Made by a program: the position numbers and the translations under genes. DNA of 64,000 nt from Branchiostoma floridae (taxonomy: Eukaryota; Chordata; Leptocardii; Amphioxiformes; Branchiostomatidae). Below the pieces are notes generated by a model, which worked only from the letters and a program-made list of their open reading frames with translations, searched no databases and was not told the DNA's origin. The stretch lies in NCBI RefSeq assembly GCF_000003815.2, contig NW_023365714.1, forward strand, positions 1-64,000, given 5' to 3'. Below are positions 2,628 to 40,634 of the stretch, one piece after another (position 1 is the first letter of the stretch; the number at the start of each line of letters is the position of its first letter).

Positions 2628-5600
2628 ATGGCAGCGAGACCACGCCTCCCCACAGAGGAGGAGATAGACCAGATGAAGCCTCTTAAGTTAGCAAGGCTTC
2701 TCCTAGACTTTGGCATGACTGAGGATGAAACTGATAAGATGGAAAAAGAAGAGGCGAGGGCAGAACTGAAGAAGAGGATCAGGGATATGCGGGCAATGGC
2801 TGCAACAAGGAGACGTCCTGGACAGGTACGAATTAATAAATACCATTAACGTCTTATAATATGGAGTTCTCATGTTATCACTTTCCAATGTTGGGATACT
2901 CTTAGTCATGGACTTAAGTGTTGGAGTTGGTTGTGTCATGGAGTATTTCCGGTAAAGTCCACGGAAAACATACAACAATAATTACCTCCATAAATATTCA
3001 TGGAACTATATTTTCAGTAGCATTTGTCTTTGTGTCTGTCAACAAGATATCTCAAGAACGGCTGGGTGGATTTTTTTAAACTTGGTGTGTTGGTAGGGTG
3101 TGACGAAAGCTGGAAATTATAAGATTTTGGGCCCCCTAGTGGCTAATATCCCTTGGTACTGCAGTGGAATTTCCGGTTTTGATTCGCGTTCTAAACGAAC
3201 TATGGTCACGATTTTGGTGTGACAGATCTCTTGCGCTTGGGAAGAAGTGACGTGAGTTTGGGCCCTCTAGCAACTAGGCTTGGAATTGGAGGGGCATTTT
3301 TGTATAAAAAAAAACTTCCGAAGAGGATGACTCAAGAAAGGAATAACAGATTTTCAGGATTTTTGTACCTGGGTAGCTTTGACAAAGATGTACAAAATAA
3401 AATGGAAATTATGCAAATTAGGAGGTCATTTACATAATTAGTGAAAATATTCATTCATAGCAGTTTTTTCAATGTTTTTCTTGTCTCGGACATGACACGG
3501 TATTGGCATTTGAGGGGCAGGTAGCTTTCGACGTCAGGACAACGTGGGGCAAGATTCAGCCCCTAACATTGAATTTTGGAACTGCAGGGGCATTTTTGTC
3601 AAAACACTCCAAAGAGAATAATTGAAGAAATAAACGACGAATTTCCATTATTTGGGGTATGCAGGTAGCTTAGGCAAAGATGTACACAATAGTATGCATG
3701 TTATGCAAATGGTTACTTCATTTGCATAATGAATAAGGAACTTATATTATTCTATTGTTTTCCATAACTGAACTTAGATGCAACAGGTTTAATACCTGAC
3801 TGGTGGAACATAAACAGATACCAAACATGAAAATGAGGAACTGACTTGCATAATTAATGCAAAAATGGCAAAAGTGTTAAATGATAAATGATTTTTTTTT
3901 ATTTGTTACATGTGTAAACTAATCAAACATGAACACTACCATGCATAAATCATGTAAATGTGTATGTCATTTGTATAACATATACAAAAGCTCCAAATAT
4001 TTCATGGAGGTATGAGGTCGCCGAAGTCTAGTTGACAATGTAATTTGAATTCTTGATTAATTGATATTTTGGTAGAAAAAACACCGGTATCGATCAAAGA
4101 ATGCTATTGTTAGTATCATTCTGTCCATGTCGACATGTGAAATTCAATTTGTATTGCCCCTGTCTCTGTCAGCCGAGCTAGCCCTTTGCAATAGCCACAG
4201 GACAATAGATTTTTAAAAAAAGAATTAATGTCACACAGTGTCAGTCACATGGGGATGGCATCCAAATTTATACTCTCCAAGCAGAGGTTGGTGGGGAAAA
4301 TCGTGACCTTTTCCTTATATGCAGTCTTTTTCGATCAGCCTCCCCATGGTGGGGAGTACCAAATTCATACATTTGTCGTACATCTTCTTGGCCTTTGGTT
4401 TCCTCTGATTGCTTCCATGAGCATCATTGTATCAACCATGTGTAAGAACTTTTGATATCTTTGCCAGATTACAGAAATGTTGCAGCGAGCTATGTTTGAG
4501 AACAAAATGAAGCGTGGGCGCCTAACACAAATCTGCAGCTCAATCTTGGACTTTGTCGACTCCATGGATAATGACGACAAACAAAAGATGAGTGAAATCT
4601 TCGGTCAAGATCTTCGAGTAGTCTTGACAGATGTGTGGACATTTCTCCAAGACGACAACTGTCCCATCTTAGTCGTAGGTTAGTTAACGTTATGTTTCCC
4701 ATCCGACCTCTGGGCTTGTCTGAACAAAAAGTAAACATTGGCCAAAGACTAAAGTAGGATAAATATCAGAGGTATAGACCTGTGTAAAAAGAATCTTTGG
4801 AACAATAAATATGTGTGTGTGTAAGCAACATTGCCAGACGGGCACAATATTGTTGGTAAAATAAGACTATATGTATATAATCAGTAGTAATGGGATTATA
4901 TAAATCTTAAACGAGCTGGAAAAACACATTGTATGATTCTTATGGTAAAATTGTAAACTGCAGTGACTGTCACATTTTTCATATTCACAATTGGTTCACA
5001 AAGCCTTTTAACATTGATGATCATGACGTAGGTGACTCGAGTTGTCCAGTCTGATAACAGGGTATGTTCAGCACAGAGGGAAAGCGTGTAAGATAAGTAA
5101 TGAATAAAAATAAGAGGGAACGCTCACGGCATATCTACATTTCTTGATGGTGTAGGAGAGACCTCATCAGGGAAGAGCAGCCTCCTCAACTTGCTGCTGG
5201 GCGAGGACATCTTGCCGGTGTCCCATCTGGCCAGTACCTCTACCCTGTGCTTCGTCAGGCATGGTGAAGTGAAGAAAGCAACGATCTACCTAACAGAAGG
5301 CAACACTTCTAGTACTGCTGGCATTGATCTCCAAGATGCAGGCAGAGCAAAGGAGGAACTTGCTTCCTACGTGCACAGATGGGGAAATGAAGATGCCACT
5401 GGAGTCCAAAAAGTGGTCATAGAGTGGCCTCTTGAATCACTGCAGGTTTGTTTTTCTGTCGCTTTTGTTATTTGTCGTTATTCTGTGATTCTCACATGAT
5501 GATCAGACCTTTGCTGAGTTTGGTTCTGTAAATGGATTGTGTAATGTAATTATTAAAAAATCTCCCTTTCAGCCATACGTTACTAACCGCCCTGCTTTTC

Positions 5601-8600
5601 AGGATGGAATATGTCTTGTTGATGGCCCGGGGATTATGTCAACGCTACAGATGGATGAAGTTGTGGCGGGTGCGGTGTCTTCCACCTGTGCCTTTATCTA
5701 CATGATCAACAGCGCCATTCCCCTGAAACCAGCATCAAGCTTCAGTGCTGGTGGGGAAGGGATAGATGATCATACAGATGGGGTATGGAATCAAATTAAG
5801 AATGTGCTTTTTAGCCCAAACTGACTGCAAACAAATTCATAGAAATATATAAAATACTTCAATTATCTACTAATATCAGATTGTGCTTCATGTAACCTTA
5901 CATATTGAAATTAGATATAAAAGATTGGTATAGACAATAGACAATAAAAGCAAGGGGTTCTAGAGTCCATTATTTTAAGATATTTACAAGTTCAGGTTGC
6001 AGAGGCATATCTCACTCATCACTCACCCATACACTCACTCAATCGCCTTCACTCTACTCACACCCATTCACTTACTCATTTTCACATTAGGATATTGAGG
6101 AAATATAACATCTGGTCCAATGTCTACTTCCAGCTTTCCCGTCTGCTGAAGTTGTGCCAGAACCACAAATGGGGAGATGCATTCAACATGTCTCGGTTCG
6201 ACCTCAAATCCACAATGTTCGTCTGCAACAAGTGGGACAGTGTCAAGCAAGATGAGAGTGAAGTAGTGAAGAATGACTACTTAAAGAAACTTAAGGACCA
6301 CTTCCCAGAGCTGAGAGATGATCAAGTGTTCTTTCTCTCATGCAATAAGGTACGCAATAAAGCAAGCCAATTGAAGCGAATGTGCTTCCATCATTAACCC
6401 TATTCAGACGGGGGGGGGGGGGGGGGCTGGTGGCTTTTGAGGCTCGCGGCAACTTTGATGTCCTATAACGCCAGAACGGCTTACGCTAGCGCCACCAAAT
6501 TTAGTGAGTTTTCCTAAAATATTGTTGGCAACAAAACCGTTTGTTGACAGGCAGTTTTGCCAAAAAATCGCTAATTTCAGTTCTAACAATTTATTTTTCA
6601 CGTTTATTTGCTATATTACTGCTATTTTGTTACATAAATGAAATCTTATGTTATTTAGCATATCTTTCATAATTATAAATGCATAGATAATGCTAATTTG
6701 ATGACATCATCAGCCCCAAATCCAAGATGGTGGACCGTATGGCCAGATCAAGAATAACAAGCTAATTATCCCTTAAAATCTGTAACTACCTGGTATTTTT
6801 CATTAAAAAAACATCTAAATGAATGTATTTAGTCTATTTCTATTGCCTTTTGTGATTATTTGTTGCAAAAAAAGTATTTTAAAAAATTCAAGGTGGTGGA
6901 TGTAATATGGCGGAGCCCAACTGGTATCTTAAATGTGCATGACGTCATTTTAGGATGTCATTTTGACGTCAATGATGTTGCTATGTGGTTATAGTTGTTG
7001 ACTTGCATTCATGTCTAAAGTTCCCTCAGACAGGCCCAATGCTGTGTACTTGACTCAGGTGAAAATAGGGGCCTGACTTCGGTTAGGGACTTCTCCTCGG
7101 CCATGTCAAACTAGACATGGTTTGACTACAACAACAATTGTTTCATGGGAAAATGGCTCAAGTTTGCGGATGTATATATGTATGTGTTACAGTACACTTT
7201 GCTTGCAGGCTGTGAGTCCAGCTGGACAGCTGTCCCCAGAGTTTTCCAGGCTGTTGGACGGGTTGGACAAGCTGCTTCCACAGAGTCTTCAGCACAAACT
7301 GGAGCTGCAGTATCAGTCAGTAACTCAACTTGATTACCTCCATAAAATGCAATGGAGGTTATAGTTTCACTAGCGTTAAAATGTCTATCTGTGAACAAGA
7401 TAACTGAAGAACGGCTGGTTTCATACTTGGTGTGTTGGTGGGGTGCGACGAAAGCTAGAAATGATTAGATTTTGAGCCCCCTAGCAAAATTCCGGTTTTG
7501 CTTTCTCGTGCACTGAAAAGGCTATGGTCACGAATTTAAAGAATTAGAAAGCTCTTATGCTCAGGAATAAGTGACATAAGTTTTGGCCCCCTAGCGACTA
7601 GTTTTGGGATAGCAGGGGCATTTTTGTCAAAAACTTCTGAAGTGGATAACTCAAGAAGGGAACAACGAATTTTTATGTTTTTTGGTATGTAGGCATCTTA
7701 GACAATGTTGTGCAAAATGAAATACTGATTATGCAAAATAGGAGTACATTTGCATAATTTATGAGAATAATCTCTCATAGCAATTTTTTTAATGTATCTG
7801 TTGTCCCGGACAGGATATGGTCTTGACATTTTAGTGGTAGATAGCTTTCAGCGTCATGACAAAGTGGGGCGAGCTTTAGCCCTCTAAGATTTATTTTTGG
7901 AACTGCATGGGCATTTTTGTCAAGACATTCCAAAGAGGACTACTGCAGAAAGGACGGATTGACATCATTTTAGGCATGCGGGTAGCTTAGGCAAAGATGT
8001 TTATAATGATATACGTCATCATCATCAGCGCGGGCTGCTTGCCCGGACCAAGTCCACCCTCTCCTTCCAGACGTCTCTGTCCCCCATATCCGTGTTATGC
8101 AAATGAGGACTTAATTTGCATAATTAATGTGGAAATTGCATAATTCCATTGTTTTCAATAATTGGACTTCAATAAATGTAACACACATAAATTATGATAG
8201 ATGGAACATAAGCAGATACCAAATATGCTAATGAGGAACTGATTTGTGTAATATATGCAAAAATTGCAAAATCGCTGAATGGTTAATGATGGAAAATTTC
8301 ATACTTGTGACATGTGTATGTTAGTCAATGATGAACATCACCATGCATAAATCATGAAAATGTGCAAATCCTTTGCATAAAATTTTAAAAAGTATTTCAT
8401 GGAAGTATGAGATCGCCGAACTCTAGTTACAAAAGTTCTTGTAATCAGCAGCAGATGAAATTTGGGGCTAGAGATGCAATACGTAGCAATTTCAAATGAG
8501 GACATTTAGAACATTCATTAAATTTTCAGTGTTTGTATGATATCTATCTATTTAACAGACATGTATGGGAACTGCTGCAGAAGGCATCACAACTCATCAG

Positions 8601-11273
8601 GCTGAAACTGCACAGTGCGTATGGAACACAGACAGAAAGGACGGAGGCAAGGAAAGAAGCCCGGCGGCGTCTTACAAACTTCCACATTCATGCTCAGGAC
8701 GTCCTACAGAGTCTTAACCAAAGATTGACAGACACAAGGAGGGAAGCTGAGCACCACCGAAGGGCATGTCTTACAGATGAAGCTCTCAAGGATCGTGTCT
8801 ACAAGAAGATACTTAGTGTCTACAACAAGAAAGACTACCAACAGTTGTCTCAGGGCTACATTGGCACAGCACGGATGATAACAGCCATTGCTGATGAGGT
8901 TGAATCACAGTTGAAGAATAACACAAACTCAGCGTTCAACCGGTGCATCCGTGAAGCTGATATCAACCTAAAGGAAGAATTTGAAACAAGGTTCGGTGCC
9001 TTGTTGAAACAGCACAATAATGTGATTGAGGAAATGCTAAACTCTCCACAGCTTCCATCGCCATTTCGGCAACTTTATACGATTTTCAAGGAAACATGCT
9101 TCAAAATCTTAAGTATCTTTTCCAAGACCTATGCTCTGGCGAGAACCATTGACCCTACCCTCAGCAGTCAAATCTGGACAATGGTGGACCTTGCACAAAG
9201 TCTGGACGAGATATTGGTGAGCCCTGATAACAGGCCAGAATACATCAAGCTTTTAACCAAGAAGGTGTTTGCTGCGATGACAAAGACAGATGCCATCAAG
9301 TCAGCCGTGGAAAAACATCTGAAAGGAACAATTGACTACATGCAAGCATGCAAAGATGCTATTCCCAGACTCAAAGAAGTTGACGAGCAGATTCTTCAAG
9401 ATGCAGAAACAGAGACAAGAAGTGCAGCTGAAATAAGGACCATCTATGAACCGAGATTGGATAAAGTTACCGAGCTGGCCGAGAAGCTTTGTGGCTTCTA
9501 CACTACTGACATCAAAAAGCACGAGTTCGATCTTGCCATCGGGAAACCGTCCAGCTGGAAACCTCCCAAGGAAGGGGGGCAAGGCCGTGTGTACCGTGTT
9601 CAACTCAGCAAAGATGGAGGCACGTTCACGGCAGCTGTGAAGATCCCAAAAGAGCTTCCTGCTGGTGAGACCTATGCTAACTTTGTCAGGGAGGCAGAAA
9701 ACCTCAGGTAATTTAATACATGTACATGTACATCACTCATACGCACTTATCTATACTGTGGAGTGAGGTTTGTCAATAAGCCTGCATGTTGCTCCTATTT
9801 TCCAGTGCTTTTTGACCTTTTTGATCTGCACAAAGAAGCTGTCCAGTGGTCAGCTCCATGAATGACCGTGCCTTTCTTGGCTACTGAATATATTTCAGGA
9901 TGCTGAAGGGACAACATGTGGTGAAATGCTTCGGGACCTATAGAGGTGATGACGATGCTGAAGGCAACCCAACGCTGGGCTTGGTGATGGAGTACTGCCC
10001 CAAGACACTGGATGCTGAGATGTTTGGGGAAAGGTGAAGTTGACTTACATCTTTGTCACATGACTTGCTGATGACTTGTATTGAATGTAAGAAAGAATGA
10101 ATGTCACAAATTTAAAAGGTAGAAACTACAGGTTCAAATACAAAGACTGGGCTGTACCTAATCATATCTGATGATAATTCTATTTCCCAGTACAAATAAC
10201 CCAGCCTGGTGGGGAGATGACCCAGAGAAGCAGGCAGCAGCCTTCAGCTACACCCAGAACCTGGCAGTGCAGCTGTGTGAGGCGCTAAAGCACATCCATG
10301 ATGCTGGGTATATGCACAGGGACCTCAAACTTATCAACGTTCTGGTAAGTTAATATCCTCCTGAGGTACTGCAAACATTGAAATCTGTACTGGCAATCAA
10401 GGTCTCAGTGGACCCTCAAAAGTTTGAAACTGTATAGTCACAAACAATCTGTGGAGGCTAATAGACGTTTAACATTGACTATAGTGCAAGTTTGATGGGA
10501 GAGTGCCTATTTCTGTACCAACAACTACATTGAAGAATGTTAAAATCACATAAGCAGTGCAGGAGGGACTGTAAGCTAATTGCAGATGCAAGGTGCATCT
10601 CTATAAACATTCAAGTTGACTGCAATTGATCCATTTGTGCAGGTGTCATCGGAGGGAGTGGTAAAACTTGCAGATCTCGGCAGCTCAAAGGCAGAAAGGG
10701 CCTACGCCCAGACAAATGAGGGGACACCGCTCTACATGGCACCAGAAGTCTTGGCACAAAAGAAGTATGACAGAAGTGCAGACATCTACAGCCTTGGACT
10801 CATCCTGCTGGAGATGTGGTACGGACGGACCATATACTCTCCGGTACGTGTTTGTTTTCCACTTTTGTGCAATATATCTGGCAAAGGCATTAACGTTACA
10901 CTTTTTGGGCCAAAGTGTTCCAAAATCTATAAAGCAAGTTGAAATAATCATCAGAATTAAAACTGGATAATAATATTGGCTAACCAACTCGAAACCTGTT
11001 GAATTTTTACAGGTAGATAGAGTCTACGACTCTCAGTTGCAAACTGCCCTGCCACTCAATATGGACCAACAGCTTCCGCTGCCATCATGGGATGGAGCGC
11101 CCCCTATCCCTGAGTGGCGGAAGCTCATCAACGAGTGTCTGAGGAGGAACACAGAGAAACGTCCCACAGCAGAAGACTGCAGGGACAGAATAGCAGGGAT
11201 GTCACTGCAACCGGCACAGGGGGCTGTTGGGGCACGGGCGGCTGACGAGGTCAGGATTAACATCCAGGAGTAA
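2628..11273 (+). CDS. Gene A: dynamin-like GTPase fused to Ser/Thr protein kinase
   Basis: Eleven exons join in phase: 2628-2825, 4468-4678, 5156-5445, 5603-5782, 6134-6349, 7209-7315, 8559-9707, 9899-10033, 10191-10344, 10643-10843, 11013-11273 (3102 nt, 1033 aa). Residues 1-66 form a small charged helical, perhaps SAP-like, domain. The GTPase domain has a P-loop GETSSGKS (137-144) whose glycine codon is split by an intron, a STSTLC switch-I motif, DGPG (about 240-243) and NKWD (325-328). That pattern is typical of dynamin-family GTPases. A helical region (about 400-735) follows. The kinase has a glycine loop GGQGRV (about 740), Lys in AAVK (762), an HRDLKLIN catalytic loop (871-878), DLG in place of DFG (891-893) and GTPLYMAPE (907-915), so it is predicted active. 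Inference: GTP-driven oligomerisation may control the kinase. Substrate and location are unknown. All junctions are GT-AG and phases match gene B. Confidence 0.85.
2979..4034. repeat. Interspersed repeat R1, copy 1 (intron 2 of gene A)
   Basis: It begins near AATTACCTCCATAAATATTC and ends near GGTATGAGGTCGCCGAAGTC. The same order of landmarks occurs at 7333-8429 and, truncated, at about 30290-30785: 'AAGAACGGCTG', 'CTTGGTGTGTTGGT', 'TTTTGGGCCCCCTAG', 'GGGGCATTTTTGT' and a GCATAAATCATG-like stretch. 'TACCTCCAT' at the left end and its inverse near the right end suggest a foldback or DNA-transposon remnant. No coding capacity is visible. Confidence 0.6.
6350..7208 (+). other. Intron 5 of gene A with G-run and unclassified repeat
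   Basis: A run of about 16 G lies at 6411-6426. It is followed by 'ACTTTGATGTCCTATAACGCC' and AT-rich sequence with scattered GATGACATCAT and ATGACGTCAT motifs. Nothing coding is seen. The motifs resemble CRE-like palindromes, but in this repetitive context they carry little weight. Confidence 0.3.
7333..8429. repeat. Interspersed repeat R1, copy 2 (intron 6 of gene A)
   Basis: Same landmark order as the copy at 2979-4034. It starts 18 bases after the end of exon 6. Compared with 30498-30520 it carries an extra segment of about 75 bases at 8020-8093 (CATCATCATCAGCGCGGGCT...), so something has inserted into an older repeat. No ORF of note. Confidence 0.6.
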
Positions 11274-13969: not shown

Positions 13970-13999
13970 GTAACGTCAAGTTCACGTTTACTAACTGCG

Positions 14000-16076: not shown

Positions 16077-16097
16077 TAAGTTGAAGGTGCCATTATA

Positions 16098-18400: not shown

Positions 18401-18414
18401 GAATACAGTTTTTG

Positions 18415-26142: not shown

Positions 26143-29100
26143 ATGGAGGGTCCACCTGCCCTGCCAACAGAGGAAGAGGTGGAAGGGATGACGTTTGGGA
26201 TGATTGTGGAGAAACTGAAGGCCCTTGGCATTCACACTGCGGACCTAGAGGAGAAAAAAGATGCAAAGGAGCGTCTTCTGAAGACCATTAAGGAGGTCCA
26301 TGACAACATTGCAACTCGAAGACAGCCCGGAAAGGTATGTGTGCGACATTGTAAGCAAGTGAAGTTTAACACCCTCGTTAACCTCCGATCGCGACCCAAC
26401 CTGACTTTTGCTGGGCCCGACCGCAAAAGTGCCAGCCGAGCCATGCCCCGCGAAAAAGGGAAATCTGGAAGAGTTATTTGGTATTTTAGGCTGTGTATAC
26501 GTACAAAGTCTGCGCTATTGTTTATTGTTTTTTTTTCTTTATTGAAATACGTGTAAGAATACAAATAAACGGACGTGGACTAAGTGACGGCGGACTCAAG
26601 TTACATTCAACTTATATTAACGCCGCCACTTATACAAGAATGAAAATAATAANNNNNNNNNNNNNNNNNNNNNNNNNNNNNNNNNNNNNNNNNNNNNNNN
26701 NNNNNNNNNNNNNNNNNNNNNNNNNNNNNNNNNNNNNNNNNNNNNNNNNNNNNNNNNNNNNNNNNNNNNNNNNNNNNNNNNNNNNNNNNNNNNNNNNNNN
26801 NNNNNNNNNNNNNNNNNNNNNNNNNNNNNNNNNNNNNNNNNNNNNNNNNNNNNNNNNNNNNNNNNNNNNNNNNNNNNNNNNNNNNNNNNNNNNNNNNNNN
26901 NNNNNNNNNNNNNNNNNNNNNNNNNNNNNNNNNNNNNNNNNNNNNNNNNNNNNNNNNNNNNNNNNNNNNNNNNNNNNNNNNNNNNNNNNNNNNNNNNNNN
27001 NNNNNNNNNNNNNNNNNNNNNNNNNNNNNNNNNNNNNNNNNNNNNNNNNNNNNNNNNNNNNNNNNNNNNNNNNNNNNNNNNNNNNNNNNNNNNNNNNNNN
27101 NNNNNNNNNNNNNNNNNNNGCTGAATTTGGGAGGGCGTATCGTTTTAAAAAGATGTTCTCGAAATTTCGAGAAATCGAGTGCACGAAGAGTTAAGTCCAA
27201 GTTGTTCCAAGCAGTGATGGAATATGGAGTAAAGGACTTTCCAAAGCGGTCAGTCGAAAATTTAATAGGTCTCAAGTTTCTGCTGTTTCTCAAATCATAA
27301 TTACATATCACCGTAATTGCATAAGGAAGTAAAGTGGTAAGGTATTCACGAGTCAGTCCGTTAACAATATTGTGAAATAGTAATAGGCGGTGAATATGAC
27401 GCCTGTCGGACAATGACTCCCAGCCGAGTTCTTTACGAGTGGCAGAATATGATGACCCTTTTATTGCACCGGTTACAATGAGGGAGCAGTGATACTGAAT
27501 TCTTTCGACGAGATTTGATTCCTCAATTGTGCACCCGTGCCAAACAATGTCAGCATATTCTAACAATGAACAATCAACATTCCTGGCAATGTGACCGCCG
27601 ACTCTCTCTTCATCGCCAACCACATAAACCAACAGTTTGCTGCTGTGGCTCAAGGTCGACCTTGCCTAGACCCGACACTACTGCCAGCGTACATGCCATG
27701 CAGAGCCCCACCGCCAGAGGTCTTCCCCTGGGACGTTTACAACATTTTGAGAAAACTGAAAGTGGGGAAAGCTCCCGGTCCTGACCAACTGAGTTCCCGA
27801 GTCCTGCGAGAGTTTGCCTGTGAGTTTAGTACACCTCTCGCAGACATTCTCAACGCATCACTGAAGGAAGGGTACGTGCCACAACAGTGGAAGGACGCGA
27901 TAGTAGTCCCGCTGCCAAAGTCACAGCCACCATCAATCAGTAAACTGCGTCCGGTGTCCTTGACCTCACAGCTTGCCAAAGTTGCTGAGACTTTTGTATC
28001 TAAGTGGCTTCTACGGGACATCCGACCGTCGCTTGACCCTCAGCAATACGGAAGTCTTAAGGGGCGATCAACCGCACAGTATCTTGTCAGTTTGCTAGAC
28101 TACGTGACCAAGGAATCCGACAAACTGGGAAACATTACGACCATGGTCATGACGGATTTCTCAAAAGCGTTCGACAGAATCGATCATACCGTAGCGATAA
28201 ATAAGTTGTTAAAGCTTGGAGCGTCACCTTGTCTAATTCCATGGATCAGTAACTTTCTCTCCAACCGACGTCAGCGAGTGCGGTACGACAGCTTACTCTC
28301 GGACTGGGAAAGTCTGTCATATTCAGTACCTCAAGGTACACTTCTTGGTCCGATTATATTTCTGGCCGTCTTTGACGACGCACTGAGAGAAGCACTGGTA
28401 CAAGAATGGAAGTTCGTTGATGACCTCTCTATGGCTGAGCCGCGCCATCACAGTGAACCTTCCATCTTACAGAGTGAGCTTGACACGTTTAGTGACTGGG
28501 CCAAACTAAACCACATGCTCCTCAATGCGGAAAAGTGTAAGGTCATGGTTTTCTGTTGGATGAAAGTGCCCCCCAGTCCACCTGTCCTCAAAATTGATGG
28601 AACACAGCTGGAAATAGTACCTGTTACTTGTCTACTTGGCGTGTGGCTTCAAGCGAACTTGAAATGGTCAGTACAAGTGGACAAAATGCTATCAAAAGCG
28701 AATGGCAGGCTGTTCATGTTAAGAAAAGTAAAACGCTTTAACCTCCCAACCGATGACCTTGTTCAAGTTTACACATCCTATGTACGTCCAGTGGTAGAGT
28801 ATTGTGCTCCAGTGTGGCACCCTGGGCTGACGTCATCACAAACTGTACGTCTGGAAAGAGTCCAGAAAAGAGCACTGTGGACTATCCTCGGGGAACATTA
28901 CATAGACTACGAGACTGCGCTTCTGACCACAAACCTTCAGACACTTGAAAAAAGATGGATTGACTTGTGCTTGAAATTCGCCAAGAAGCTCGACCCCTCA
29001 TTGCTCCCGCCAAGGGCTGGCGAGATTCACGGTAGATCCACGAGAAACTCGGACTTGTTCAAAACAGTAAGANNNNNNNNNNNNNNNNNNNNNNNNNNNN

Positions 29101-32100
29101 NNNNNNNNNNNNNNNNNNNNNNNNNNNNNNNNNNNNNNNNNNNNNNNNNNNNNNNNNNNNNNNNNNNNNNNNATTCATCAGATAGTCTTTAACTCGATGT
29201 ATTAAGGATTTGATGGAAAAAAACCGTGCATTTCAGCCAATTGGCTGCCAAATGTTTTTACTGAAGTTGTGTTGTGCAACGAATAAACCATTCATTCATT
29301 CATTCATTCATTCATTCATTCATTCATTCAACGTATAAAGGACTTGTATATTTTTTCTAGAACCTGACGGGATAATTTGAATTTTAAAACACTAAATAAT
29401 TGGACACTTTTAGAGGCTTTGGTGACAATGCTTTCAATGTGTTGATGCCAAGACATATTGGAGCTAAAAGTAACCCCAATATGCTTGTGACTAGAAACTG
29501 ACTTTATCATGGTTTTATTAAGAAAAAGAGGGGGATGGACCGGATAAATTCTTTTGGAGGTAAAGCACATTTCTTCAGTTTTAGCAGGGTTTAGTTCCAT
29601 TAACCAATTGGTGGACCATAAATGAATCTTTTCCAAATCTGAATTAAGCGAAAGTGCGTCGTTAATTGGGTTATCAATAACTTGGAGCAGAGAGCTATCA
29701 TCAGCAAATAGCATAGGCTGGGAGGCAAGTCCTTCAACAATATCGTTAATGTAAACTAAAAAAAGTAAGGGGCCCAGAATAGAACCCTGGGGGACGCCGG
29801 CAGAAATGCCGCACCAGTTTGACGACTGGCCGTCGATAACGACACGTTGAAATCGATTTTGGAGGTAACTATATAACCAATTTATAAGCCGCCGAATCTG
29901 TGATGGGCTCCGAGCAGGGAGACTCCACAGAAGAAACCGACAGCGACCAAAGTGGTTCCGAGAGTGATACAGGGACAGATGTGTCCTCCGGGACGGTATC
30001 ATCTGATGATAGTGAACACACCGGCTACGACAGCGGCTACCACAGCGGTGACAGGAGGAGTGGACACTCTATCGAGACTGGACCATCGCACTACCTCACC
30101 AGCCAAGCGATGTTCCTCAACGTGTCATCAAACAGACGAAGCGTGCTGGCAAAAAGTTTTATCTAATAGAGTTCGCTGCATTGCCTCGTTACAGTAATGA
30201 GATTGTACACAGCAAGAACTGGGTGCCAGAACAGACATTGATGAAAAAATATTGTTACCTCGTCCTGAAGTAATGTGTGTGTGTGTGTAAACAAAATAAC
30301 TCATGAACGGTTGAGTGGATTGGTTTCATACTTGGTGTGTTGGTAGTGTGTGATGAAAGCTGGAAATGATTAGATTTTGGGCCCCCTAGCGGCTCCCCTT
30401 GGTACTGCAGCGCAACTTCCGGTTTTGCTATCTTGGTGTTCTGAACATGCTATGGTCACGATTTTTTTACAAAGATAGCTTGGGCAAAGATGTTCATAAT
30501 GATATGCATTTTATGCAAATGAGGACTTAATTTGCATTATCAATGAGGGAATTGTATAATTCCATTGTTTGCAATAGCTGGACTTCAATAAATGTAACAC
30601 TTGTAAATTGTGATAGGTGGAATATAAGCAGATACCAAATATGGTAATGAGGAACTTATTTGCATAATTTATGTAAAAATTGCAAAACGACTTTATGATT
30701 AATGATGGGAATTTTGTTATTGTGACATGTGTACCTTAGTCAATGATGAACAACACCATGCAAAAATTACAAAAAGCCCGATAAAAACGACAACAACAAA
30801 AAAAATAGCTGGAACTTATCCTCTGCTTGGAGAGTAACCACTAAAATCAGAATAGCACAGACCATGGAGGGAAGACCAGACCCCCCAGGGAGGAGTGATC
30901 ATGAATACAGTAACAGTAAATGTTTGAAAAAGTTAGACATGCCAAGACTGCAATGTTTTGAATATTTCATGTGGAAAATTTGGTTTCAAAATGCAATCTG
31001 TAAATCTTCTTACAAATGTAACCTCATGTACTAAAGAACAAATGTGAATTTTTAGAAATTCCACAAAGGAATTCACACGTACAGTACCAAGGGATCTATG
31101 TGTCATACAGAAGTTTGCAAGTTTGGGTAGGCTATAGAAAGATAACATTAATGACCCACCTGTTCCTCGGTGTATATGGTCCTTTTCTATAACCACCTCA
31201 TAAATAGACTGGTTAGAGGTGGTTATACCAGGCGTTATGACACCATATACACCTCGAGGGGGGTCGTTAACCCTTTATCAACCACTGGAGGTACAAAGTC
31301 TAATGTCACCACCAATTAGAGGGATTTATGATTAGCTGGTGACAAAGGAAGGGTGATGCCTTTTAAAGAAAATGGCATAACGTTACATGTAATTGCAGAA
31401 TCTGGAACATAATTGTCTTTTTGTTTAGATACTTTTTAGATCTGTTAAATTTTGTTAGCTTCAGCTAATCTAATCTAGATGAAACCACAGATATGGTAAA
31501 CTAGAGCAGTCAACATCTCAGCACACTAATGGAAATAGCTGTATATCATATTACACTTCACTCATGTATATTTTGCCACAGACTTCATGCTGCATGTACA
31601 ATGTACATGTAAAAGTATTGATTGAAAACATGATTTTCTGACTCCTGTCTTGGTCTCCTGTTCTGGCCAGATTACAAAGACATTGCAGCAAGCTATCTCT
31701 GAGAACAAGAAGAAGCGGGAAGGTCTAACGCAAATCTGCAACTCAATATTGGAGTTTGTTGACTCCATGGAGGATGATGACAAACAAAAGATGGAAGAAT
31801 TGTTTGGTCAAGATCTCGAGCTCCAAGTGATCTTGGAAAATGTGCGGACATTTCTACAGAACGACGACTGCCCCATCTTAGTTGTAGGTGAGTAATTAAC
31901 AACTTTAGGGGGGAACCCAACTCCAGAAACTTGTGTTCTGTCTCTTTGTGTTTTCTTTTTTCTTGATAAAAAACTAATGATATGTATTGTATTAATTTGG
32001 CACATTGAGTTTGGACTAGGTGTCATTATCATTATAACGTTTTACACATCTGGGCTTTTTCTGATAACCCCTGAGTATCCTGATGTCACTGCATCCAAAT

Positions 32101-35100
32101 GTATTGATGATGTTCATGTATCTATAGGAGAGACTTCTTCAGGGAAAAGTACCCTTCTCAACTTGCTGCTAGGGGAGGGCATCTTACCAGTATCCAATTT
32201 GGCCTGTACATCTACCCTGTGCTACATCAGGTATGGTGAAGTAAAGAGGGCAACGGTCTACCTGAAAACTACAGCTAAAGCTACAGCAACAGCTAGCACC
32301 AGCCAGCACACAATGGATTTCAAAGATGAAGACAAGGCAAAGGAGAAACTTGCTTCCTACCTGCGCAGTTGGGAAAGAAAAGATACAACTGAAGATTCAA
32401 CTGAAGATTCAACTGAAGAAACAACTGAAGAAACAACTGAAGAAACAACTGAAGATACAACTGAAGAAACAACTGAAGAAACAACTGAAGAAACAACTGA
32501 AGAAACAACTGAAGATACAACTGAAGAAACAACTGAAGAAACAACTGAAGATACAACTGAAGAAACAACTGAAGAAACAACTGAAGAAACAACTGAAGAT
32601 ACAACTGAAGAAACAACTGAAGATACAACTGAAGAAACAACTGAAGAAACAACTGAAGATACAACTGAAGAAACAACTGAAGTCCAAAAAGTGATCATAG
32701 AGTGGCCTGTTGAAGCTCTTACGGTCCGACTGAGTGCTTTTAATGCTTTCCTGTCATCATTGCTGTAATGTTATTCCCTGAATATTTCATCTGCTTGGTA
32801 ATCATCAATGGATAGGGAAGTTTTTCACACAGCCATAATCATTCTTACCTTGCACTGTGTCGGTAGTATGTCAAACCAGAGCTGTAATATACATGTGGGT
32901 CCCAGGCACTGAAGAATGATCAGTATTGTTCTGAGCTAGGACTGCTGACACACTGAAAAGTAAGTATAATTGTGGCTGTGATAGAATTACACTAAATTAA
33001 ATCCAGATGTTCTCATATGGATGCCAAGTTGCATTTTTTAAAATCCTTTTCAATATGCTATAATTAGTATTACATTACAATAACCTGCATATACCTATAG
33101 CTAAGCAATATTGCTTGCACACTTTGATATATAAACTATTTTTCAGGGTGGGATATGTCTGGTTGATGGCCCTGGTATCAAGGAAACTGAAGAGATGGAT
33201 GAAGTTGTGGCGGGTGCCTTATCATCCACCTGTGCCTTCATCTATGTGATCAACAGTGCCATTCCCATGAAAAAGGCTTCAAAGTTAGTAAGAGGCGGTA
33301 GCATGGAGCATGGAGATGGGGTTTGTACAGTGACTTGTCATCTCCATGAATTAATGCTAGTTCACCTTTATCCGAGGGTAACCTATATCCGTTGTTTGTA
33401 AGAAATAAAGAGTATTTAGGGATATGAAGTAAACTAAAGGTGGTTTCAAATAGGAACATTTTGAAAATATTGCAAATTTGAAACCACAGTCCGCAGACTT
33501 AATGCTCCTAAATGTGCTGTTTTAAAGACAACGGATAAAGGTCACCCCACGGATAAAGGTGAACTGGCGTTATATAGTTTTGCTGAGTGTGCGTGCGTGC
33601 GTGCGTGCGTGCCAGTGTGTAGTTCCGGCACAGTATCTACAGAACATATTCAATTTGATTAAGATGTTTTGTACAGTGGTAGGTGCTGTTGGCTTTTGTA
33701 TTTGTGTTTTGCACTAAGTCAAGATCCTCTTGATGGATTGTTATGGAATTTTGTATGTTTGTTGGTATTGACATATAAACATGACACTCATTTAGACACT
33801 TATTCAGACAAAGACAATCTAGGGCCCCAAATCAGCTTTTTCAGCTGCAGGTACCGCAGCATTATAGGCTAGCATGTAACAAGAATTTTATGATCCTAAA
33901 AGTCATCATAATTGTAGCAACAAAATCTATGGCCATAAAATGATGATGATTGTCCACTGTTGTTGATTGTACAGCTTTTGCGGATTTTGTAGGTGAATTT
34001 CAAAGTGTGAATAGAGTCCATTCCAAGTCACCATGAGGGGTTTTAGGTGATATTTGTAATTAGTCTGAATTATTTTGAATAAAAGAATATCTGAATATAA
34101 AGAGTCACAATAATTAAATTCTTTTAAAAAAATTGCCCATTGAACCATTTACAAAAAATGGTAGAAAATGGTAAATAATGGTAGAATGCTGTTATCATTA
34201 TTTAGAAACCATTAGAAGTATCCAATTCCACACCATGAATATTTACAAAGTTTTACAAGACCATTTACAAAGTTTTACAAGACCAGAGAAATATTTATAA
34301 AGTTGAAACAGTGTTAAAAAAAAATTTCTGAAGTATCAAATGTCCCAGACATAGAATGACAAAACTTTAAAATTAATTCTAAACAATGGCAACAAACATT
34401 CGCACAGTGTCTTGGAATGGACTCTAGTTCCTTCATGGCCAGAGATTTCCCCACTAAAAGAGGCCAATATTACACCGGAGTCAAACACCCAAGATAAACA
34501 ATCCATGGTCTTTACATATACAAAATCATTTGATCAGTATTGATTTTCCATCTTCAGCTTTCCTATCTGCTGACGTTGTGCCAGAACCACAAACGGGGAA
34601 AGGTGTTTGACCTGGAATCCACCATGTTCGTCTGCAACAAGTGGGACGTTGTTGACCAGAATGAGCGAGCAGTGGTGAAGAAAGACTACTTAAAGAAACT
34701 TAAGGACCACTTCCCAGAGCTGAGAGATGATCAAGTGTTCTTTCTCTCATGTAAACAGGTACTACTCATCTTACAGGGTACATACAAAATGTAAATGCTT
34801 TGTTTTGTACTTTGTAATTGGAAGGAGACTCAGAGCATACAAACTTGCAATTGCAATAATATTACACTTCCATAATCCCTCTGTGCAATCCTAGCTCACA
34901 ATTCTTATATTTGGTTGTGATCATGACAGGATTGGCAAATGATAAAAAAGTGCATAAAAGACATAATAACACTAAGAAATGTGGTCTTTTGGGTAACATA
35001 GAGTCATTCAAGTAATTTAATCTTAAAATTTTAATGTCTGCCCTCCGGTCCAAATACTTATGTGTACTCATATGTATTCAAATATGTGTACTCATCTAAT

Positions 35101-38100
35101 GTGACTTATCTTTATTATTTGCAGGCTGTTGGTCCAACAGGAAAGCTATCTCCAGAGTTCGACAGGCTGCTGGACGGGTTGGACAAGCTGCTTCCACAGA
35201 GTCTGCAGCACAAACTGGAGCTGCAGTATCAGTGAGTTAATCATGATATTCAAACTGAAAGTGTACTTTTACCTTTAAAATTAATGGATCAGATATAAAA
35301 TGTTGAGTGAGATTCATTCAGTCTGAAACTGTCTCACATTACCTCCTACACTGTCCCCTGTACTGTGATCTCCGCCATAACCTCACATCCACCGTCCAAC
35401 ACCTCTTACAACAACAACCTACCGTGCCCCTCCTACTCCAGGGATCCACAGCTCATAACCTCTCCACAAACAAACAAGTGTCCGATGCACTACATTCTTA
35501 CATTGTATCAACTAAAAGACTCCAGCTGCGCCAACCTTCTACTAATTAACCACTGATAGCTATTTGCTCTGATTTTAATTGTATTATTTTCATTGTATCA
35601 TTATAATGATGATGATGTTGTATTATTATTATGATGTATTACTATTATTGTATTGTATTATGTATGTGCCTTAATGTGTATGCTGCACAACATCAGCATA
35701 TTGCTGCCTGGTGCAGCATACTGTATTGTCTAATGTTGCAATTTGAATAAAGTCCAAAGTTCATTCAATCTCTACTAACAGTAATTCTGCAAAACATCAC
35801 AATACATGAAGATGACAAAGGAGAAATTGGAAATCCAGGGGAATTCAGAATTCCAATCTCGCCTAGGAGGTTCCAGAATTCTCCTAGGACAGATTGGAAT
35901 TCTATACTACTCACTAGTTAATGCATAATACTTAAATATGTTCTGTATACTACTGAGACTAGTGTGCTGTATACTACTCGTGCAGTGTACATGTTGTATA
36001 GCAGTATCTTAATCTACTGCTGAATTTCAACAAGCTAAACAACAATTTTTTTCTGGCAAAACATTTAAGCCAATTTCATATGAAGAAACTGGCAAAAAAC
36101 AAGGCTAACTGGAAAAAAGAGAACATTGAGTCACTAACTCATAATGGTCGTATGCAAATGTCAGCAATATGTTAATCAGCGACATTTACATACGACCATT
36201 ATAAGTTAGTGACTTGATACATAAGAGCTCATTTCCCTCCCCCAAGCCAGTTCCAAATTGGATAAATTGACAGAATAAAGTATAAACAGTACTTATTAGC
36301 AAGACTATAGGTACTAAAACATAAAGAGACTCACCTAGAATAGTTTGAAATGCAGGCTTATTGTTTATTGACTCCTTTAGTTGTTGACAGCTTATAACTG
36401 CAACATCTACTCAACGCTTAACGTATGGCAGAATTGATTGGCTAGTGACAAAGAATGGGTAATGCCTTTCAGATAATATGAAAATAGAGCTACTAATTTT
36501 TACATAATTGTCGTTCTGTTTAGATGCATTTGTTATATGTGGCAAAAGTTGTGAAATCATTGAGACTATTTTCCCCAACAATTTCACCTTATCTGGATTT
36601 CTCCTGGTAGAATCAACAATTGTCTTCAAGTTGGTAGAATTCCAATCTTTGCTAGGAGACATAATGGAATTCCAATCTCCACTATTACGAGAATTCTGAA
36701 TTCCCCTGGATTCCAATCTCCCCTGTGACATAAACAATGATTGATTGTTACCATCATGATGTGACCTGTACTTAGCCCACTGTGGGGCAAAAATGTGCAA
36801 TAAAGGTCTTCATTCATTCATTGAATTGATTTCATTGAGACCGTCTGGCCATAATGCCGGTGCAATGTGCTCTGTCATCACTGAACAGTAAATGAGGCCA
36901 TTTAACAAACTACATATGGTAATACCAGAGTATGTCTAAGACAAAATTACAACAAATCCCCAAAAAACAACATGATTTCAGTGAATAGGTATTGTAAATG
37001 TTACAAAGACTATCATGTATTTTTCCACCATTCATCATTATGACAATGTCATTTGGAAGTGAGTAACTCATTAAAAGTAACAACTTCAAGCAGCAAAGGA
37101 TTCATTTATTCTGCTCTTAGGCCACACCAATTCTACTTGTTGTTTCTCGGATTATTTTCAGAAAAAAATTGGGTCGGTCGGTCGGTCGAAAAAAAAAAAA
37201 AACTTTTCAAAAAGTCGGGGGTAGGAAAGATCGAACAAGAAAACCTAAACTTTCAACATTTAGGGGGTCCCTGGTAGCAAAGTCCAAAGTTTGAAGAAGA
37301 ATGATAAATGTACCGTCCAAAATAGGCACGTACAGCTACTGGTATTTGAGGCCCATAGTTAATGTGAGAAAGGAGAGGCAGTGAAATTTTGTCAACACGA
37401 GGTGTGGACATCTATTTGAATTTTTTTTTTCAAATCGGAAAAAATAGGGTCGGTAAATCCGAGAAACAACAAATGAAATTGGCATGGCCTTAAAATAGAA
37501 TAATCTCATTTTAACAGGCATGTGGGAGTTGTGCTGCAGAAGGCAAGGCAGTACATCAGGCTGAAACTGCATTGTGCTTTTAATAATGGAACAAAGGAAG
37601 AAAGACAGGAGGCAAAGGAAAAAGCAAAGAGTCGCCTTGAAAAGTTCAATCAGATTGCAGAGCAAGTCAAAAGGACTCAAGGCGAAATGTTGAAAGCTGC
37701 CAGGAGGGAAGCTGAGGGCCTTCTCAGGGTGTTCTTTCAGGATGAGTCTGTCAAGGACAGTGTCTTGAGCAAGATAATGCATTCAGATGACTTCCAAGAG
37801 GTGGACAATAGTGAGGTATGTTCCACAGGGCTGATAACAGCCATTGCTGATGAGATTGAGTCACAGCTGGAGAATAACCCAAGAGCCTCAGCCTTCAACC
37901 AGTGCATCCATGATGCGGACATCCGACTCAAGGAAGAGTTCAAGACAAAGTTTGGTGCCTTGTTGAAACAGCAAGACAATGTGATTGATGAAGTGCTGAA
38001 CCTCCCACCCAAGCACTCAAAACTTAAGCGTCTCAGGAAGTTTTTCAATGACATCATCTTCCGAGCTGCAAGTGTCTTTTCTTCGGAACCCTACATGTCT

Positions 38101-40634
38101 GCGCTGGACAGGATCATTGACCACGGTTATGCCATCGGGGCTCTGCTGAACTTAGCCATGAAGGGAACTCTACTAAAGATGGCAGAAAGTCCAGACAACA
38201 GGGACAAATACATCAGTCACTTTGTCAACCAGGTCTTTGGTGCAATGGTAAAGGATATAGCCCTCAAGACAGTCGTGATAAAACACTTCGAAGGACTTAT
38301 CGATTTTCACAACTCATGCAAAGATGCTGTCCCCAAGCTTCAACGTCGTGTTCAGAAACTCATCCAAGACGCTGCATCAGAGAAAAGAAGTAAAGAAAAA
38401 ATAAAGAAAATCTATGAACCAAAATCTCAAGAGGTTTGCCGACTGGCTGAGGTCTTTTATGACTTCTACATCAACAACATCAAGAAACACGAGTTTGACA
38501 TGACGAATCTATCCCATTGCTGTAACAGTTTTCAGAATGCTGGATCATACGGACATGTGCACAAAGTGGAAGTCAGCAAAGATGGAGTCACGTTCACGGC
38601 AGCTGTAAAGATCCTACACCGTGAGACTACAGTGACTGAAGACTTTGTTCGAGAAGCAGAAAACCTCAGGTGATAACATATAAATTTAAATGTTTTTATG
38701 CCCTTGTCTTAAAAGACTTGTTTTAGGTCCATATATTAAGACCAACATCTCCAATTAGGATTTAGGGTTTTATCAAATCAAATTAGCTTCACGTTAATTT
38801 ATCAATGTGTTGGGGAATAATTCAGTTAACAATGAAGGATATCCTATGACCAACACAAAGACTTGGACCTCCCAAATGTTTGTACTGTGCAACAACTGAC
38901 GGTCTTCATTTCCTTCACAGTAGAAAATTTTTGGGAAGTCCAAGTCTTATGTTGGCATTGGCGATAAAATACCCTTCATCTTTTAATGAATTCTGTCAAC
39001 ACAATTAAACTTGAAGCAATTTTTTACTTCAGAGGTACAAGAATTGGATTTCAAAAAGTAAATGATACCCTTATCAGAGGCATGTAGTTGATTGATCTTT
39101 ATTTGGCTTTTTCAAGGGCTGCCAAATGACATAATATTAGCAAAAATGAATGGGCAGATCTTGAACCTAGACCTCAGGACAAACCCTGTTTGCAAATGAT
39201 GTTCTCATAGTAAATATGATATAACAACTGCATACTCTGACATAATATTCAACGTTGGTTTCAGGGAGCTGGGAGGACAGCACATTGTCAAATACTATGG
39301 AACAGTGTTTGGCAAAGACAAAGCAGGAAAGCAGACCCTGGGGTTGGTGATGGAGTACTGCCCGAGCACACTTGAGGCAAAGATTGAGTAAGCTGGCCAG
39401 CAAACCTTATTATGTTTCCAATGGAAATTATCTTGTTTTCCTTGTGCCTTTTGGCCTGTTCTTGTCCATCCAATGAAAAGAGAGTAGTAGACTAGCTTTC
39501 TGATTGCACATTCAAAAAGGGTGGGATCAAAATCAAGTTTGTTTGTGCCAAGATTTTTTACTTTTACTTGTGATTTCTGCCTGTCAGGATGTTTGCCATT
39601 AGTGCAGTAGTCTCTGGTACATGTATATATAAATTACATCTGATGTCATTTCTATTTCCCAGAGAAAAAAGCCCAGCCTGGTGGGGTTCTGACCCAGAGA
39701 AGCAGGCAGCAGCCTTCAGCTACACCCAGAACCTGGCAGTACAGCTGTGTGAGGGGCTCAAGCACATCCATGGTGAAGGGTACATCCACAGGGACCTCAA
39801 ACTCAGCAATGTTCTGGTATGTTTGTTTGCAGAATATTGAGACTAGTTTTGAGCTGAGTTTTAATGCATTTACCTTATCACTGTCATGGGACTTTCAAAA
39901 TGAAATCTAAAAAGATTTAAAAATGTACAATGTCATGAACATCATTGTGCACAGATCAGGTCAACTGATCTCTCAAAGTAACAAGGATTCAATGTACCCA
40001 TTAGTGGAAGACTAAATTCCTGGTGATGATGTTGAAACTGCAACTTCAAATATGTTGATTCCATTGATCCTTTTATTCAGGTAACAGAAAAAGGAGTGGT
40101 CAAACTTGCTGATCTCGGAAGTACAAAGCGAGAAAGGAACTACGCACAGTCTCTGGAAGGGACCCCCCTCTATACGGCACCTGAAGTAAAGGCACAGAAG
40201 AAGTACGACAAGAGTGCAGACATCTACAGCCTGGGCCTCATCCTGCTAGAGATGTGGTACGGACGGACCATATACTGCAAGGTATGTGTTTGCTTTCCAC
40301 GTCTGTTTAGGAATATCTGGATTTGCCAGATTGCTGGTAGTTTCCTAGAAAAGTAATCAGATTTGAATGGTTGGTCAACTGAAATATTCCAAACCTTTTT
40401 GAATTTCTGCAGGAAGAGCCGGGCTACGACTCACAGTTGCAAAAGGCCCTGCCACTCAACGTCGGCAAAAAACTTCCGCTGCCATCATGGGATGGAGGAG
40501 CGCCCCCCATCCTTGAGTGGCGGAAGCTCATCAACGACTGTCTGAGGAGGAACCCAGGCCTTCGTCCCACAGCAGAAAACTGCAGGGACAGGATAGCGGG
40601 GATGTCACTGCTAGAGGTTGGGATATCAGTGTAG
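26143..40634 (+). CDS. Gene B: dynamin-like GTPase fused to Ser/Thr protein kinase, paralogue of gene A
   Basis: Eleven exons with the same order and phases as gene A: 26143-26334, 31671-31887, 32128-32723, 33147-33320, 34558-34758, 35125-35231, 37518-38669, 39265-39387, 39663-39816, 40081-40281, 40413-40634 (3339 nt, 1112 aa). The start at 26143 aligns MEGPPALPTEEE with gene A's MAARPRLPTEEE. GTPase motifs: GETSSGKS (137-144), STSTLC, DGPG (342-345), NKWD (420-423). Kinase motifs: AGSYGHV glycine loop, AAVK, HRDLKLSN (963-970), DLG (983-985), GTPLYTAPE. Residues 223-322 are 25 four-residue TTEE/TTED units absent from gene A. The exon 3 donor is weak (ACG|GTCCGA). Intron 1 (5.3 kb) holds nested LINEs and a gap. 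Function is unknown; the architecture suggests membrane- or GTP-regulated kinase signalling. Confidence 0.83.
26653..27119. other. Assembly gap
   Basis: 467 N within LINE A. Confidence 1.
27572..29329 (+). mobile_element. LINE B: 5'-truncated non-LTR retrotransposon inserted into LINE A
   Basis: A frame open from about 27591 to the gap at 29073 encodes reverse transcriptase: APGPDQLSSRVL, LRPVSLTSQLAKV, TDFSKAFDRIDH, VPQGTLLGP and the catalytic site FVDD (in place of the usual YADD/FADD). A C-terminal PVVEYCAPVWHPGLT block follows. The 3' end has AATAAA at 29283 followed by (ATTC)n, the microsatellite tail usual for CR1/L2-type elements. No endonuclease domain is present. The flanks share only AAC (27569-27571 and 29330-29332), a possible very short target duplication. 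Confidence 0.85.
29073..29172. other. Assembly gap, standard 100 N
   Basis: Exactly 100 N inside LINE B, so the real gap size is unknown. Confidence 1.
29897..30272 (+). pseudogene. Coding-like fragment: acidic Ser-rich segment then a basic/aromatic segment in another frame
   Basis: From 29903 the frame reads MGSEQGDSTEETDSDQSG and stays highly acidic and Ser/Gly rich to about 30085. From about 30100 the +1-shifted frame reads KRAGKKFYLIEFAALPRYS, then NWVPEQTLMKKYCYLVLK and a stop at 30270-30272. Codon-like quality in two adjoining frames suggests a frameshifted fragment of a longer ORF, possibly a retroelement. The family is not recognised. It begins where LINE A is truncated. Confidence 0.35.
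30290..30785. repeat. Interspersed repeat R1, copy 3 (truncated)
   Basis: Shares 'CTTGGTGTGTTGGTAGTGTG', 'TTTTGGGCCCCCTAGCGGC' and the GCATAATTTATG-like AT-rich right half with the copies at 2979 and 7333. A middle part of roughly 400 bp is missing. Confidence 0.6.
31148..31270. mobile_element. Small foldback element
   Basis: AATGACCCACCTGTTCCTCG GTGTATATGG and TATAACCACCTC at the left are mirrored by GAGGTGGTTATA, CCATATACACCTCGAGG and GGGTCGTT at the right. About 120 bp, in intron 1 of gene B. Confidence 0.65.
32385..32684 (+). repeat. Coding minisatellite, 25 units of 12 bp (ACAACTGAAGAA)
   Basis: It lies inside exon 3 of gene B and encodes 25 TTEE, TTED or STED tetrapeptides in frame. 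Every unit is 12 bp, so the frame is kept. It sits between switch I and the DGPG motif, where gene A has only WGNEDATG. Long ORFs on the other frames and strand are by-products of the repeat. Confidence 0.95.
33353..33572. mobile_element. MITE family B, copy 2
   Basis: AATGCTAGTTCACCTTTATC at the left; GGATAAAGGTGAACTGGCGT at the right; internal CCTATATCCGTTGT / ACAACGGATA inverse pair. Inserted 33 bp after exon 4 of gene B. Confidence 0.75.
33600..34013 (+). other. Intron 4 of gene B, remaining part
   Basis: A short (GCGT)n run at 33590-33612. Otherwise nothing recognisable. Confidence 0.3.
34014..34424. mobile_element. MITE family E, copy 1
   Basis: TA|GAGTCCATTCCAAGTCACCA at the left and GTGTCTTGGAATGGACTC|TA at the right; 411 bp. 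Subterminal 'TTTACAAAAAATGGTAGAAA' and neighbours are shared almost base for base with the copy at 62429-63118. Confidence 0.85.
35310..35770 (+). mobile_element. 3' end of a non-LTR retrotransposon
   Basis: Encodes ETVSHYLLHCPLYCDLRHN, a Cys/His motif typical of LINE C-termini, then a stop near 35547. After an AT-rich UTR comes AATAAAG near 35745. Only the last 75 codons remain. Plus strand, intron 6 of gene B, 80 bp after exon 6. Confidence 0.65.
35814..36729. mobile_element. Foldback element about 0.9 kb
   Basis: Left end ACAAAGGAGAAATTGGAAAT then CCAGGGGAATTCAGAATTC; right end is the inverse (GAATTCTGAATTCCCCTGG ATTCCAATCTCCCCTGTGAC). Further 'CCAATCTCGCCTAGGAG' / 'CCAATCTTTGCTAGGAG' units lie inside. 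It contains the palindrome at 36130-36213 and a block near 36450 similar to 31340-31435. Confidence 0.7.
36130..36213. repeat. Near-perfect palindrome, 33-bp arms
   Basis: GTCACTAACTCATAATGGTC ... GCAAATGTC faces GACATTTAC ... GACCATTATAAGTTAGTGAC across an 18-bp spacer. Nested inside the 35814-36729 foldback. Confidence 0.85.
36730..37517 (+). other. Remainder of intron 6 of gene B with LINE tail
   Basis: GTGCAATAAAGGTCTTCATT then (CATT)n at 36796-36822 looks like the 3' tail of a CR1/L2-type element. GTCGGTCGGTCG and an A-run lie near 37173-37202. No exon seen. Confidence 0.4.

Follow-up and report, generated by a model that had tools for sequence, protein, structure and literature searches.

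Two neighbouring genes of the amphioxus Branchiostoma floridae each encode, within one predicted protein, a dynamin-like GTPase, a stalk and a complete protein kinase domain. Both genes lie in a 64,000-nucleotide stretch of the genome (hereafter, the window; C156:1-64000), and fusions of the same order recur at other loci of this genome. We are nearly certain that this family of one-protein fusions is real.

Structure and integrity of the two fusion genes

We rebuilt the exon chain of each gene in the window. Gene 1 (2628-11273, + strand) comprises 11 exons, 3102 nt in total, and encodes 1033 amino acids. An N-terminal leader with the start codon (exon 1, 2628-2825) and a lead-in to the G domain (exon 2, 4468-4678) are followed by the P-loop GETSSGKS and the switch-I motif TSTLC (exon 3, 5156-5445), by DGPG, the G3 motif (exon 4, 5603-5782), by NKWD, the G4 motif (exon 5, 6134-6349), and by the end of the G domain (exon 6, 7209-7315). 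Exon 7 (8559-9707) contains the stalk and the kinase N-lobe, with the glycine loop at 9577 and the lysine motif at 9631. The remaining exons encode the kinase: a putative hinge region (exon 8, 9899-10033), the catalytic loop HRDLKLINVL (exon 9, 10191-10344), ADLG and APE (exon 10, 10643-10843), and the C-lobe with the stop codon (exon 11, 11013-11273).

Gene 2 (26143-40634, + strand) also has 11 exons (3339 nt, 1112 amino acids). Its leader is homologous to that of gene 1 (exon 1, 26143-26334) and precedes exon 2 (31671-31887), exon 3 with the P-loop, switch I and an in-frame minisatellite (32128-32723), exon 4 with DGPG (33147-33320), exon 5 with NKWD (34558-34758) and exon 6 (35125-35231). 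Stalk and kinase N-lobe again share exon 7 (37518-38669; glycine loop at 38542, lysine motif at 38599), after which come exon 8 (39265-39387), exon 9 with HRDLKLSNVL (39663-39816), exon 10 with ADLG and APE (40081-40281) and exon 11 with the C-lobe and the stop codon (40413-40634). The minisatellite (32380-32682) consists of 25.2 copies of a 12-bp unit coding for EETT or EDTT; it adds approximately 100 residues to the G domain of gene 2, between switch I and G3, and is absent from gene 1.

A preliminary description of this DNA had given the span of the pair as 2628..40634, which is exact: 2628 is the first base of the ATG of gene 1, and 40634 the last base of the stop codon of gene 2. Its central claim, that each gene carries both the GTPase and the kinase motifs in one in-phase chain, is borne out, the sole difference being CTSTLC in gene 2 for STSTLC. 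All introns of both genes are GT-AG, their phases are consistent and no internal stop occurs; frame breaks, which had been named as evidence against the fusion, are likewise absent from the 1033 and 1112 codons. The term "tandem pair" suits the two genes as neighbours on the same strand, but they stand approximately 14.9 kb apart, with an EF-hand exon (20381-20680, +) in the gap. The two proteins match in 484 of 803 aligned columns (60%) over their larger part and in 120 of 220 (55%) over their N-terminal part.

Exon 7 is the key to the fusion. In both genes it encodes some 320 stalk residues and, after them, the glycine loop and catalytic lysine of the kinase. Since the end of the stalk and the kinase N-lobe share one exon, the stalk-kinase junction is no product of stitching or of an erroneous gene model. 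The open frames that hold this exon are 403 and 389 amino acids long in genes 1 and 2, respectively; as a chance control, the window was shuffled 50 times by single bases, and the longest open reading frame never exceeded 210 amino acids (mean 150). That exon 6 joins exon 7 is predicted on a twofold basis, splice phase and recurrence at other loci. Least certain is the link between exons 1 and 2 of gene 2, which lie approximately 5.3 kb apart, because two reverse-transcriptase open reading frames and two runs of N (26653-27119 and 29073-29172) separate them; splicing across this intron is presumed. The reverse-transcriptase frames match RVT_1 and occupy 27570-29192 (+) and 29328-30068 (-).

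The GTPase half and the stalk

Both genes contain GETSSGKS (G1), TSTLC (G2), DGPG (G3) and NKWD (G4). Searching Pfam with hmmscan, we found Dynamin_N at residues 133-271 of protein 1 (E 6.6e-19, 69 bits) and at residues 133-380 of protein 2 (E 1.2e-17, 64.9 bits), well over the cut-off of 27 bits. Against the PDB, protein 1 alone matched the bacterial dynamin-like protein 2j68 first (E 2.5e-13). A GTPase profile built from five family rows matched the same structure at E 1.5e-26, mitofusin-2 (6jfk) at 1.4e-11 and, over profile positions 49-545, the GTP-binding protein 5owv_C at 4.2e-8. Among the best 60 of the 103 matches, classical dynamins gave only P-loop-sized alignments, with the dynamin-1-like protein at E 0.04 or worse. 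Judged by these matches, the GTPase belongs, among solved structures, with the bacterial dynamin-like/mitofusin branch. The designation "dynamin-type GTPase" given earlier is therefore apt at the level of Dynamin_N, but the closest solved structures are those of this branch. In NCBIfam, the model of the bacterial dynamin DynA matched the G domain at 46.5 bits against a cut-off of 1600, and all 23 families listed for gene 1 scored below their own cut-offs.

The stalk is less easily placed. We folded exon 7 alone and with its paralogue; the models show helices over residues 2-319 or 2-322 at low confidence (mean pLDDT 43.9 and 45.4) and were too poor for a fold search. With a profile of the stalk alone, no PDB dynamin was matched at E 10. 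Maximal Kyte-Doolittle means along the stalk are 0.82 for gene 1, 1.19 for gene 2 and 1.03 for a relative at C156:793k; those at C223 (1.67) and C156:842k (1.54) are intermediate. Two more distant members contain strongly hydrophobic 19-mers, C10:14.254M with 2.25 at stalk residue 199 and C1:16.48M with 2.38 at residue 189. The matching places of these two segments are as would be expected of a membrane-touching tip. Membrane insertion is unsupported for the window genes, because neither has a strongly hydrophobic stalk segment.

The kinase half

The glycine loop reads GGQGRV in gene 1 and GSYGHV in gene 2, and AAVKI, HRDLK..N, ADLG and APE occur in both. Pkinase was matched at residues 739-1003 of protein 1 (E 8.8e-42, 143.7 bits) and at residues 838-1096 of protein 2 (E 4.1e-41, 141.6 bits; hmmscan against Pfam, cut-off 31.7 bits). 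Both domains are complete, with the lysine, the HRD aspartate and the DFG-type aspartate retained. We did not adopt a kinase class from the best PDB match (Nek7, followed by MST-type kinases), as such matches are too generic. An 18-row kinase tree, which leaves out C1:16.48M (a row lacking one exon), placed the seven family kinases on one side of a 100/99 branch.

A family of GTPase-kinase fusions in the B. floridae genome

We searched the whole genome (513,431,437 bases in 431 contigs). Protein 1 yielded at least 45 matches and a C10 relative at least 50, counts that include the window genes and some ordinary kinases; Dynamin_N was matched 33 times in all. At 10 loci, the two of the window included, we examined the whole exon chain, and 7 of these have P-loop, stalk and kinase exons following one another in this order on one strand: gene 1, gene 2, C156:793k, C156:850k, C223, C10:14.254M and C1:16.48M. 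At C156:850k, the stalk exon is interrupted by a run of N, and we located no NKWD exon. C156:864-877k has GTPase and kinase exons in order, and C156:842k has the rest of the chain, with the position of the P-loop falling at a run of N. At C10:14.300M, the GTPase exons are accompanied by only a weak kinase remnant, and GTPase exons are also present at two loci outside these 10, C2:751k and C1:16.495M. Seven loci beyond the window, on C156, C223, C10 and C1, have GTPase exons followed by kinase exons on one strand, as the window genes do. The end of the stalk and the kinase N-lobe lie in one frame at C10:14.254M, C223, C156:793k, 842k and 850k and C1:16.48M, as in the window genes. Exon identities across the loci that share the fusion order range from approximately 22% upward.

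In one member the kinase appears to be dead. The relative at C223:91501-99500 keeps the GTPase motifs GETSSGKS, DSPG and NKWD, and in its kinase AVLII stands at the lysine motif, HGD replaces HRD and TEVG takes the place of the DFG-type motif, with the catalytic-loop aspartate and asparagine retained. It is likely a pseudokinase fusion, and kinase output may therefore be dispensable in some copies.

We also scanned prokaryotic and viral contigs. Of 47 candidate stretches, the prokaryotic scan retained a single locus, where 33 residues matched in Desulfobotulus; the viral scan retained none of 115. Both scans see close motif matches only and are thus silent on age and origin. Among the titles and abstract openings listed in our literature search, none gave an account of an intact dynamin-like GTPase-kinase fusion; lancelet annotations may carry automatic names.

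Selection and possible gene conversion

The dN/dS ratio between the paralogues, put forward in the preliminary description as a check, is approximately 0.43 overall (dS 0.66, dN 0.29; Nei-Gojobori, 1000 aligned codons). By part, dS and dN are 0.50 and 0.19 in the GTPase, 0.77 and 0.39 in the stalk, and 0.53 and 0.19 in the kinase, which gives ratios of approximately 0.38 for the GTPase and 0.36 for the kinase. By this measure, purifying selection acts on both halves.

Per exon, dS ranges from 0.23 (exon 9) and 0.28 (exon 5) up to 1.5-1.6 (exons 8 and 1), values that are noisy for short exons. It is lower in exons 5, 6, 9 and 11 (0.23-0.39) than in exons 1, 7 and 8 (0.84-1.64). This several-fold spread suggests local gene conversion, and the persistence of the two paralogues is for that reason not fully independent evidence. 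The earlier argument, that persistence of both catalytic centres in two diverged genes reflects selection on the fusion, consequently stands in part: the centres are intact and under purifying selection, but the C223 relative has lost kinase residues and the paralogues are not fully independent. Elsewhere on the contig, at the locus C156:874561-877764, an exon 1 (C156:876061-876264) is 81-82% identical to exon 1 of gene 1. It is nearer to gene 1 than the first exon of gene 2 is, hinting at exon-level mixing among copies.

A possible link to DSTYK

The preliminary description knew of no standard animal family with this domain order, a statement that is probably wrong. DSTYK is also named RIPK5 or Dusty protein kinase. 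In the human protein, the kinase domain is C-terminal and the N-terminus resembles a broken P-loop; the human sequence used here is provisional. A homologue of the DSTYK N-terminus is present in this genome at C5:29542491-29543684, where two stretches share 43% and 47% identity with the provisional human DSTYK; it is absent from the genome's Dynamin_N matches. The locus C5:29541901-29550017 holds the N-terminal exons of DSTYK, which contain an SNRHSGPSN-type repeat in frame. Kinase exons of DSTYK were recognised neither in the genome search nor in the 6.3 kb from the locus to the contig end.

The GTPase part of the family aligns with DSTYK as with a decayed GTPase. The five-row family profile matched amphioxus plus provisional human DSTYK at E 7e-5 (score 44.3; 200 column shuffles gave at most 25.6) and the genomic DSTYK alone at E 0.0059 (score 29.9). 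Using the GTPase part of eight family rows, the match was E 1.8e-5 with provisional human DSTYK included (score 41.4; 150 shuffles, at most 24.5) and E 0.0016 with the genomic sequence alone (score 28.8; 150 shuffles, at most 20.8). The corresponding hhalign probabilities were 63 and 78 for both DSTYK sequences; with only the genomic one they were 6 and 16. The match begins at the P-loop and spans approximately 115 columns; at the P-loop site, DSTYK reads GQSCDAKA in the genome and GQDCNVKC in the provisional human sequence, whereas the window genes keep GETSSGKS. By their motifs, DSTYK and the C223 member show opposite decay, the P-loop being ruined in the former and kinase residues lost in the latter.

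Other comparisons lent no support. The stalk regions of the family and DSTYK could not be aligned (score 17.1 at E 0.19, against up to 21.0 in 100 shuffles), and the DSTYK rows matched no GTPase in the PDB and no Dynamin_N in Pfam. The 18-row kinase tree, in which DSTYK was represented by the provisional human kinase only, left it unplaced, on a branch of 1.53 outside the family. Raw kinase similarity is no guide here, because the provisional DSTYK kinase matches the family kinases at 67-81 bits and the best other lancelet kinase at 91. Overall, the link of DSTYK to the window family is plausible but unproven.

Published work places DSTYK on late endosomes and lysosomes, which fuse upon its overexpression (PMC6981171), associates its loss with fragmented notochord vacuoles (PMC7012607), and describes phosphorylation of STING by DSTYK at late endosomes (PMC11933320). 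The word "dynamin" was not found in these three texts, and "GTPase" was found a single time, in the title of a reference.

Comparison with known systems

The bacterial dynamin-like protein (2j68/2w6d) and the mitofusins are the best solved relatives of the GTPase and resemble the window genes in the G1-G4 motifs and perhaps in a helical region after the G domain, predicted at low confidence. In genes 1 and 2 the stalk contains no strongly hydrophobic segment, in contrast to two more distant members of the family; the bacterial protein and the mitofusins are not known to carry a kinase. Classical dynamins and Drp1 share the dynamin superfamily with the window genes but, among the best 60 of the 103 matches, align over the P-loop only. 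DSTYK has the same order of a GTPase-like N-terminal stretch, a middle region and a C-terminal kinase, and its GTPase-like part aligns remotely; it differs in its destroyed P-loop, in an unalignable stalk and in a kinase that does not group with the family. LRRK1 and LRRK2, of the Roco proteins, are described as having a GTPase, a dimerisation region and a kinase in one chain (PMC9573974). In this they offer a comparison of how the window genes may work, but the GTPase of the latter is Dynamin_N, and no Roc, COR or LRR match was found in Pfam at E 0.1.

Proposed mechanism and alternative explanations

The explanation that we consider best, and to which we give about an even chance, is an expanded family of GTPase-stalk-kinase paralogues with an assembly-controlled kinase. 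GTP-bound heads would pair, and the stalks would come together, either at a membrane or as a scaffold in the cytosol. This assembly would gather the kinase domains for trans-phosphorylation of their activation loops, a mark that would report that the assembly has formed, and GTP hydrolysis would reset it. That GTP-driven assembly controls the kinase, much as LRRK-type proteins couple a GTPase to a kinase, we rate slightly below even. If it does, these proteins would link the state of a membrane or polymer to phosphorylation signalling within one molecule, in an LRRK2-like manner without Roc.

Clustered copies, possible gene conversion among exons, the repeat insert of gene 2 and the loss of kinase residues in a relative fit a fast-evolving family that senses stress or defence better than a housekeeping one; a role in defence is nevertheless doubtful. 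Similarly speculative is the proposal that kinases attached to assembling GTPases form an old family in animals and are switched on by GTP-dependent polymerisation. The window genes would have retained both activities, human DSTYK would be a surviving vertebrate member whose dead GTPase still acts as an endolysosomal membrane module, and members such as C223 would have kept the GTPase and lost the kinase.

How the fusion arose and what its GTPase half does could be read in two other ways, each of which we consider a real possibility that falls somewhat short of even. According to one, DSTYK and the window genes descend from a common GTPase-kinase ancestor; DSTYK lost nucleotide binding, the window genes kept both activities, and the main task of the GTPase half is to bring the kinase to endolysosomal membranes. 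The DSTYK homologue at C5, a profile match that starts at the P-loop and exceeds all shuffled controls, and the reported presence of DSTYK on late endosomes and lysosomes, which it fuses when overexpressed (PMC6981171), agree with such descent. It is weakened by the hhalign probabilities (only 63 and 78, and 6 and 16 with the genomic sequence alone), the unalignable stalks, a kinase tree that leaves DSTYK outside the family, the lack of GTPase and Dynamin_N matches for the DSTYK rows in the PDB and Pfam, the provisional human letters, and the DSTYK kinase exons that went unrecognised. The other holds that a dynamin-like GTPase became fused to an unrelated kinase a single time in this lineage and that duplication followed, the likeness to DSTYK being due only to shared P-loop ancestry. 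The family kinases indeed group alone in the 18-row tree, the DSTYK match covers only approximately 115 columns, and domain shuffling has been reported in amphioxus (PMC2575513). Such shuffling has been disputed, however, as being partly annotation error (PMC4967905), and a separate origin leaves DSTYK with the same domain order and with a match that beats shuffled controls.

Both remaining explanations are very improbable. Two adjacent genes might have been stitched together by our reading: lancelet gene models reportedly often contain errors of this kind (PMC4967905), and the link between exons 6 and 7 is drawn from splice phase and recurrence. Against this, stalk and kinase share one exon, the phases agree and the order recurs at other loci. 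Decaying pseudogenes would account for the retroelement frames and the minisatellite within gene 2 and for the lost kinase residues of a relative, but not for 1033 and 1112 codons without a stop or frame break at a dN/dS of 0.43. We largely reject both on the open frames, the shared exon 7 and the dN/dS ratio.

The assembly-controlled kinase remains our preferred reading. The possible link to DSTYK, for its part, offers a concrete hypothesis, open to experiment, on what the N-terminal half of this kinase, which is tied to human disease, might be.

Downstream of the fusion genes, the window also contains a 359-amino-acid frame (59895-60974, +) with apparent tandem C2H2 zinc fingers, joined by TGEKPY linkers that we take to be a sign of this class.
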